Shown here: piece after piece, positions 14,404 to 15,646 of the stretch
Position numbering within the stretch: position 1 is the first letter of the stretch
Layout: every line of letters starts with the position of its first letter
IMG/VR virus record: IMGVR_UViG_3300029448_000193
Span: 1-33,204 of that record
Length of the DNA: 33,204 bases
Direction: 5' to 3' (one strand)
From: a virus
Notes under the pieces: generated by a model
Database searches by the model: none
Told to the model about the DNA's origin: nothing
What the model saw: only the letters and a program-made list of their open reading frames with translations
Program-made: the position numbers and the translations under genes

Positions 14404-15414
14404 ATGGCACACGTTGATCTGTGCAGTGGCATAGGCGGCTTTGCTTTGGGCTTTGAATGGGCTGGTTTGAGCAAGCCTGTCTTGTTCTGCGACATAGAGC
14501 TTTGGAGCCGAAAGGTATTAGCAAAGCACTGGCCTAATGTGCCGATAGCTACAGACGTAAAGGAACTTGCTGATGACCCAACTCCCATTATTCACGCAAT
14601 CGGAGACAGACCAAGCATCCTCACAGCCGGATACCCATGCCAACCTTTTAGTCAAGCAGGGCAGCGTAGAGGCAGTGAAGATGACAGACATATCTGGCCA
14701 GAAATATTTACCATTATTCAAAAAGTCAGACCAGATTGGGTTGTTTGTGAAAACGTTTCTGGCCACATCACTATGGGCCTCGACGAAGTGCTTTCTGACT
14801 TGGCAGACAAAGCCGATTACGCAGTCCAAACATTTCATCTTGGAGCTGTATCCGTCGATGCCCCACACAGAAGAATGCGACTCTGGATCGTCGCAAGAAA
14901 TGTGGCCAACGCCAATAGCCTCAACAGGTGGGCCGTACAAAAACCACAAGGGAGACGAAAAGAAAATCCCATCAAGCGGCAATCCTCTAGCAACAGCAGT
15001 TGCGATGTGGCCGACACCAACAGCAAACAACGCAGGCGAAAAGCTTGTAGAAAACTTGACAGACAAGAATGGCAAAACACCGAAACCAAACGAAAGAGCT
15101 TACAACCCAAAAACAGGAAAGCACACTCAAGTCACGCTCAACAGAGCAGTGAAGATGTGGCCGACACCTCGAGCGCGAGATTGGAAGATGACGGGAGACG
15201 TGGCGAACTGGGCAGAGAGCGCGATAGGAGACGAGTGCCTACGCAGAGCAGTGGGGAGAAAAGAAGCAACACCTGGAAGCCTGAACCCCCAGTGGGTCGA
15301 GTGGCTAATGGGATACCCAAGCGGGTGGACAGACTTAAAGGGCTAGGCAACGCAATTGTTCCACAAATTGCAATGCGGATTGGTCAAACGATCAAGGCGG
15401 TTAACGATGGCTGA
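14404..15414 (+). CDS. C5 cytosine-specific DNA methyltransferase
   Basis: 336 aa from ATG 14404 (a GTG at 14389 is possible). Motifs in order: I, DLCSGIGGFALGF (5-17); IV, GYPCQPFSQAG with nucleophile Cys79; VI, CENVSG (115-120); VIII, APHRRMRLWIVA (153-164); and the C-terminal GLGNAIVPQIAMRIGQ. The enzyme transfers methyl groups from S-adenosylmethionine to cytosine C5, probably to protect phage DNA from restriction. The stretch at 166-308, where target recognition sits, is odd: rich in Arg, Ser, Gln, Asn and Lys, with repeated NVANAN/DVADTN/DVADTS. The same bases encode a second protein in the +1 frame (14681-15346), which explains the composition. No cognate restriction enzyme is nearby. 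Confidence 0.92.
   Translation: MAHVDLCSGIGGFALGFEWAGLSKPVLFCDIELWSRKVLAKHWPNVPIATDVKELADDPTPIIHAIGDRPSILTAGYPCQPFSQAGQRRGSEDDRHIWPEIFTIIQKVRPDWVVCENVSGHITMGLDEVLSDLADKADYAVQTFHLGAVSVDAPHRRMRLWIVARNVANANSLNRWAVQKPQGRRKENPIKRQSSSNSSCDVADTNSKQRRRKACRKLDRQEWQNTETKRKSLQPKNRKAHSSHAQQSSEDVADTSSARLEDDGRRGELGRERDRRRVPTQSSGEKRSNTWKPEPPVGRVANGIPKRVDRLKGLGNAIVPQIAMRIGQTIKAVNDG
14681..15346 (+). CDS. gene nested in the methyltransferase, +1 frame (MWPTP / EWLMGYPSGWT family)
   Basis: A 221-aa frame lies wholly inside the methyltransferase on the same strand. Its ATG has AGAGG eight bases upstream, a better ribosome site than many genes here. It starts MTDISGQKYLPLFKK, continues GLFVKTFLATSLWASTKCFLTW and ELYPSMPHTEECDSGS, has three MWPTP units (MWPTPIAST, MWPTPTANN, MWPTPRARD), and ends LNPQWVEWLMGYPSGWTDLKG. 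From memory this whole pattern is a family commonly annotated beside phage cytosine methylases, and WLMG-x-P-x-GW also occurs in the recognition part of some single-chain methylases. A recognition or partner subunit is possible; the activity is unknown. The frame stays open from at least 14567, so the AGAGG site, not ORF length, decides the start. Confidence 0.65.
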   Translation: MTDISGQKYLPLFKKSDQIGLFVKTFLATSLWASTKCFLTWQTKPITQSKHFILELYPSMPHTEECDSGSSQEMWPTPIASTGGPYKNHKGDEKKIPSSGNPLATAVAMWPTPTANNAGEKLVENLTDKNGKTPKPNERAYNPKTGKHTQVTLNRAVKMWPTPRARDWKMTGDVANWAESAIGDECLRRAVGRKEATPGSLNPQWVEWLMGYPSGWTDLKG

Positions 15415-15646
15415 CCCAGTGATGGTGAACTGTCCCAGGTGTAGGGGCCAGGGAGAAAGGGAACAACCAGTATTCTCAGGGCGATTTGATGACGCTCATG
15501 TAGCTGTTTTTGAGTGCGATGTATGTGGTGGCTCAGGAAAGGTAGATGTCTTGGAAGACGCGATCCTAAGAGTGGAGCCGCCGAAACCTTATACATACAA
15601 GAAATGGAGAATTGAAGAGGCCATATTTGGGGATGATGAAGACTAA
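15407..15646 (+). CDS. small zinc-finger protein, DnaJ-type CxxCxGxG
   Basis: 79 aa from the ATG at 15407, preceded by AAGGCGG and overlapping the methyltransferase stop by eight bases. Two cysteine pairs, CPRCRGQG and CDVCGGSG, about 30 residues apart form a DnaJ-like zinc site. The rest is acidic (EEAIFGDDED end). It may bind protein or nucleic acid; no partner can be named. The next gene, in another frame, starts inside its last codons and also has such pairs. Confidence 0.7.
   Translation: MADPVMVNCPRCRGQGEREQPVFSGRFDDAHVAVFECDVCGGSGKVDVLEDAILRVEPPKPYTYKKWRIEEAIFGDDED

Follow-up and report, generated by a model that had tools for sequence, protein, structure and literature searches.

The window, by which we mean the whole stretch of 33,204 nucleotides that was analysed, carries on its plus strand a gene for a C5-cytosine methyltransferase (alpha, frame 0), located directly after a gene for a RuvC-like resolvase and with a Cro-like ORF close by. 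An integrase gene and a gene for a repressor-like HTH protein are found in the same phage. Within the methyltransferase ORF, a second reading frame (+1, beta) has no stop between 14567 and 15346. The features of both frames are as follows.

14404 to 15414, plus strand: alpha chain, C5-cytosine methyltransferase with motifs I-VIII and X, no motif IX
14559 to 14564, plus strand: AAAGGA, Shine-Dalgarno sequence of beta, 8 nt before ATG 14573
14573 to 15346, plus strand: beta chain, 257 aa, W-P-T-P array and putative motif IX; PHROG 1008, conserved +1 overlap
14638 to 14640, plus strand: catalytic cysteine (PCQ) of alpha motif IV, invariant in two alignments
14681 to 14683, plus strand: internal methionine of beta, taken as the start in the initial annotation; homologues reach further upstream
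14792 to 14857, plus strand: beta hairpin, residues 74-95, one of the regions of beta that AlphaFold models better
14863 to 14895, plus strand: alpha motif VIII, PHRRMRLWIVA (alignment)
14903 to 15007, plus strand: beta cassette 1, WPTPIASTGG... (unit analysis)
15008 to 15157, plus strand: beta cassette 2, WPTPTANNAG..., 50 codons, wholly missing in locus L008 (alignment)
15158 to 15280, plus strand: beta cassette 3, WPTPRARDWK... (unit analysis, L008 alignment)
15281 to 15334, plus strand: motif IX-like segment of beta, LNPQWVEWLMGYPSGWTD, with constraint in both frames
15340 to 15366, plus strand: alpha motif X, GLGNAIVPQ (alignment), followed by a confident helix

The alpha and beta chains

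The alpha chain starts at ATG 14404, with GTG 14389 as a possible alternative, and matches Pfam DNA_methylase (7.5e-34) and PHROG 363 (1e-65). The catalytic PCQ and ENV are present within motifs I-VIII. The sequence match to M.HhaI, in which alpha residues 3-170 align with M.HhaI residues 14-177, ends after motif VIII, and inspection of motifs and alignments revealed that motif IX is absent from alpha's own chain. The initial annotation had stated that the host frame keeps all methyltransferase motifs, which holds for motifs I-VIII and X but not for motif IX, as an IX-like segment is encoded in the nested frame, and this distribution explains why the chains would form a pair. Alpha and beta were each modelled separately, from alignments that excluded the rows of phage records. 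In the AlphaFold model of alpha, residues 1-178 form a confident catalytic domain, most of residues 179-316, which overlie the recognition region of beta, are unstructured and of low confidence, and a confident C-terminal helix is found at motif X. A fold search with this model matched M.HhaI and M.HaeIII, the matches covering about 180 of the 327 residues.

For the nested frame, the open stretch from 14681 to 15346, the AGAGG located 8 nt before ATG 14681 and the ordered motifs quoted in the initial annotation were all found again. The start proposed there, however, is an internal methionine. Because the N-termini of beta homologues begin upstream of 14681, and because AAAGGA is a better Shine-Dalgarno sequence than the AGAGG of ATG 14681, translation of beta would most likely start at ATG 14573. 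At 121 of 149 loci beta has a start codon with a Shine-Dalgarno sequence, where 44 would be expected. Ribosomal frameshifting into one full-length chain, with a +1 shift following motif VIII and a return ahead of motif X, would accord with the existence of a single-chain relative of the same order, but beta has its own start signal and a long frame ahead of the needed shift, and two shifts per chain would be required; such a frameshifted fusion was rejected as very improbable.

Beta as a chain of its own had no match in Pfam, and nothing was found in the PDB by sequence or by fold. The AlphaFold model of beta alone is poor (pLDDT 58.6), with the hairpin and the IX helix (residues 239-246) among its better parts. 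The beta segment LNPQWVEWLMGYPSGW matches the motif IX that alpha lacks, and the C-terminal end of beta has the form and the map position of this motif. As judged from motif form and position, motif IX would be supplied by beta. The ORF that follows alpha (window positions 15398-15646) weakly matches the DnaJ CXXCXGXG zinc-binding domain as well as an anti-termination Q-like PHROG family.

Conservation of the nested frame and selection on it

Scans of viral contigs by beta and by alpha revealed that alpha and beta are paired in the +1 register at every locus, and 164 of 168 viral-contig loci hold this pair and nothing else, some contigs being counted in both scans. Similarly, when bacterial genomes were scanned with the proteobacterial beta alignment, the +1 overlap was present at 80 of 80 loci, and window-type and proteobacterial betas can be aligned over nearly their full length (hhalign E 1.8e-33). 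In even draws of genomes, centre genomes included, 10 of the 274 members of one class and 3 of the 297 from another phylum gave a match to PHROG 1008; the loci examined from these draws keep the +1 overlap with alpha, locus L365 being apparently decayed. If the same class was ranked by alpha, beta accompanied most of the best alphas, and this draw also contained ordinary C5 methyltransferases without beta, save for weak matches of 19-24 bits. The nested pair is recurrent in phages and prophages of many bacterial phyla. The same +1 overlap was observed at all fetched loci when homologues were compared at the DNA level, and the suggestion of the initial annotation that two phage protein families are two readings of one DNA stretch proved correct, the families being PHROG 363 and PHROG 1008, both labelled 'DNA methyltransferase'.

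Stops do not occur freely in the beta frame. In 10,000 synonymous-codon shuffles of the window, with the alpha protein kept fixed, a mean of 7.5 stops and not a single open frame were obtained, compared to 0 stops observed, and the +2 frame in the same shuffles was flat (17 stops observed, 19.8 expected). For 231 alpha/beta pairs, 0 stops were observed in the beta frame and 1213 expected, a count that is partly given by construction since the pairs had been picked with an open beta, whereas the window shuffle test and the loci found by alpha alone are free of this selection. In 57 single-chain controls of the streptococcal type, the matching +1 stretch contained 291 stops and was open in none.

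The identity of fourfold alpha codons, determined for pairs at 70-90% alpha identity, amounted to 51% before and 56% after beta; within beta it was 78% for the catalytic overlap, 86% for the cassettes and 91% for IX. Fourfold codons of the beta frame are only 62% identical over the cassettes, which is near background and indicates that beta is the constrained frame there and alpha nearly free, while over IX both frames are constrained. Constraint in each frame, which the initial annotation had proposed to measure, is found over IX; over the cassettes it lies on beta. Single-chain controls likewise show a higher codon identity over motifs IV-VIII, so that codon identity is not decisive in the catalytic zone, and the claim for this zone rests on stop avoidance, on column-level locking of third bases and on the start signals. 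For pairs at 55-70% the value for the recognition region was 0.61 in nested enzymes and 0.46 in single-chain controls, and for IX it was 0.82 and 0.36, respectively. Across loci of 32-71% GC, third bases are free before and after beta and many of them are locked from about alpha residue 117 on. In one leucine column CTG and TTG occur 102 and 100 times with base 3 fixed, as would be expected if base 3 is the second codon position of beta. A Leu/Arg test concurs over IX and does not support about the first 65 residues of beta, and amino-acid constraint is slight in the initial part of beta.

This lack of constraint in early beta and the rise of codon identity over motifs IV-VIII in single-chain controls are in line with a nested frame that merely results from codon conservation in alpha and from low-complexity repeats, with beta being a spurious annotation, as the initial annotation had allowed for one of the families. 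We consider this highly unlikely, as the single-chain controls are full of stops in the matching frame, the window frame was never open by chance, the beta frame is the conserved one over the cassettes, and the start signals of beta exceed chance; a spurious translation is also contradicted by the conservation across phyla and by the presence of the IX-like segment in the nested frame. The sequence comparisons show a genuine nested +1 frame that is conserved and subject to selection.

Exchange of W-P-T-P cassettes

The recognition region of beta is made up of units that are about 25-55 residues long and open with W-P-T-P or a similar motif. Betas mostly have one to five such units, and nine are present in locus L122. 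Clustering of 516 units led to 30 families with at least 4 members. When beta pairs with a common family were compared, 1,317 of 1,342 differed in other units, and for most of the larger families the unit that follows on the right is taken from many different families. Among 49 pairs of enzymes that are distant from one another (44% identity over alpha motifs I-VIII), the common unit is 76% identical in the frame of beta, 69% identical at the DNA level and 36% identical in the frame of alpha, the best other unit reaching 40%. The same cassette family was never encountered twice in one beta, compared to 3.7 cases expected (P 0.02). The betas of the window and of L008 are exactly one whole 50-codon unit apart, at W-P-T-P joints, and the neighbouring units are nearly identical. 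Whole cassettes are exchanged between betas, and these patterns fit a recombination of putative recognition modules between distant phages.

Multispecific phage C5 methyltransferases possess several exchangeable recognition modules in one enzyme. Beta likewise contains several distinct and exchangeable putative recognition modules. It resembles in this respect SPR, phi3T, rho11s and H2, where, however, the modules are part of one chain in one frame, whereas those of the window are located in a nested second chain. SPR, phi3T, rho11s and H2 are multispecific phage C5 methyltransferases cited in PMC8936443. We tentatively suggest that beta might be a modular specificity subunit in which every W-P-T-P cassette recognises a DNA target of its own, in which recombination of whole cassettes at the conserved joints, the cassettes staying open in the frame of alpha as well, changes or adds specificities, and in which as many targets are read as there are cassettes (mostly 1-5, up to 9), although the odds seem to lie slightly against this full reading.

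Two further arrangements were encountered. Locus L122 (2667-4472) encodes a beta of 602 residues in which five of the nine W-P-T-P units follow motif IX and lie past the point where alpha ends, and locus L062 (132-1952) harbors a tandem of two nested alpha/beta pairs with different cassettes.

A proposed two-chain methyltransferase and its relatives

We consider it highly probable that the nested genes encode the two chains of a heterodimeric 5-methylcytosine DNA methyltransferase whose target is chosen by the cassettes of beta. Alpha would contribute an AdoMet-binding catalytic domain (motifs I-VIII) and motif X, separated by a long disordered linker, and beta, translated from its own ATG and Shine-Dalgarno sequence inside alpha, would contribute motif IX and a target-recognition array of exchangeable W-P-T-P cassettes. 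The two chains very probably join into one DNA-methylating enzyme, in which the methylated sequence would be set by the cassettes of beta.

We infer a heterodimer, with alpha catalysing and beta recognising, since an alpha without IX and a beta with an IX-like segment at the matching map position correspond to the arrangement of M.EcoHK31I. Such an enzyme is also suggested by the presence of the +1 pair at all fetched homologues and the absence of beta from the 57 single-chain controls, by stop avoidance, start signals and a third-base locking that is confined to beta, and by the alpha model with its catalytic domain, disordered linker and motif X helix. Further support comes from two relatives, Fancypants gp73, where the alpha-beta order is found in one chain and one frame, and Medusa gp78/gp77, which is split into two consecutive chains. 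Recognition is placed in beta because in that region the frame of beta is conserved, that of alpha is nearly free and alpha is modelled as disordered. Counting against the two-chain enzyme are the poor model of beta, its lack of any fold or sequence match, the increased codon identity of controls in motifs IV-VIII and the first ~65 beta residues left unsupported by the Leu/Arg test. Of the possibilities raised in the initial annotation, a catalytic chain plus a recognition chain is favoured, as the nested frame is conserved across phyla, is selected and holds the motif that the host frame lacks. A separate function of beta, for instance as a regulator or an anti-restriction protein that merely overlaps the methyltransferase, would suit its lack of Pfam or structural matches but is most unlikely, given that beta provides the IX-like segment that alpha lacks, is found together with alpha throughout and has its unit order fused in frame in the single-chain relative.

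The two-chain design is already known from M.EcoHK31I (YGGCCR) and is not new in kind, a precedent that the initial annotation had missed. Lee, Kam and Shaw reportedly found in 1995 that EcoHK31I beta is nested in alpha in another frame and that both proteins are needed. The small chain of the window pair is likewise nested in the large one in another frame, a likeness in arrangement. In M.EcoHK31I, as in the window pair, the larger chain has motifs I-VIII and X and the smaller chain has IX, whereas its predicted target-recognition domain has been placed in the larger chain (PMC3404938) and ours is assigned to the smaller one. In M.AquI, a C5 methyltransferase is split in the variable region and the second chain carries recognition, IX and X (PMC3404938). 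A catalytic chain combined with a recognition/IX chain is common to M.AquI and the window pair, and M.AquI resembles Medusa gp78/gp77, but in the window the genes are nested and motif X remains part of alpha. What goes beyond M.EcoHK31I is the breadth of the distribution, the assignment of the recognition region to beta and the swappable cassettes of 25-55 residues recombined between distant phages.

In locus L068 beta is fused to motif X. The recognition part of beta may plausibly have been derived from an ordinary chain through offsetting frameshifts. In locus L171 (Candidatus Megaera plasmid pPCS109), IX is found in the frame of alpha and the W-P-T-P region in +1, and this is possibly an intermediate or a decaying copy. 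Locus L374 (1501-2412) encodes an ordinary-looking C5 methyltransferase without W-P-T-P that has an IX-like EYEILQGFPEGWTEV in +1 and lacks such a stretch in its own frame; this may be another nested design of independent origin, or the gene may be damaged.

The context of integrase, repressor-like HTH protein, resolvase and Cro-like ORF makes self-protection of a temperate phage against restriction the likely role, the enzyme shielding phage DNA from restriction by the host; no partner endonuclease was seen among the window ORFs examined. Long same-strand overlaps selected in both frames are uncommon, and this one is widespread over phyla. The nested design explains the existence of two phage 'methyltransferase' families, and it accounts for the VAD-type repeats of alpha chains, which are W-P-T-P read in the other frame. 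With the swappable cassettes, it can be tested directly how phages alter their methylation specificity.

A general account of the nested alpha/beta design was not found in open-licence papers. Inner genes had already been annotated case by case, which the initial annotation had overlooked: Lily gp63 ('g62 internal gene'), Leyra LEYRA_62, and genes of K1G and K1ind2 ('Mte8-like protein') belong to the same alpha/beta pair in the same register. When annotated coordinates were compared by hand with the frames found, 5 of the 20 annotated records inspected showed both genes, 11 only alpha, among them N15, epsilon15 and BcepC6B, and 4 only beta. As annotation mostly shows one gene, anyone studying a single chain would be dealing with only half of the enzyme. 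In phage epsilon15 (L396:863-2032) and phage N15 (L172:1113-2108) an unannotated beta is located in the +1 frame of an annotated cytosine methylase, and at loci L173, L180, L182 and L005 beta is annotated and the catalytic alpha is not.
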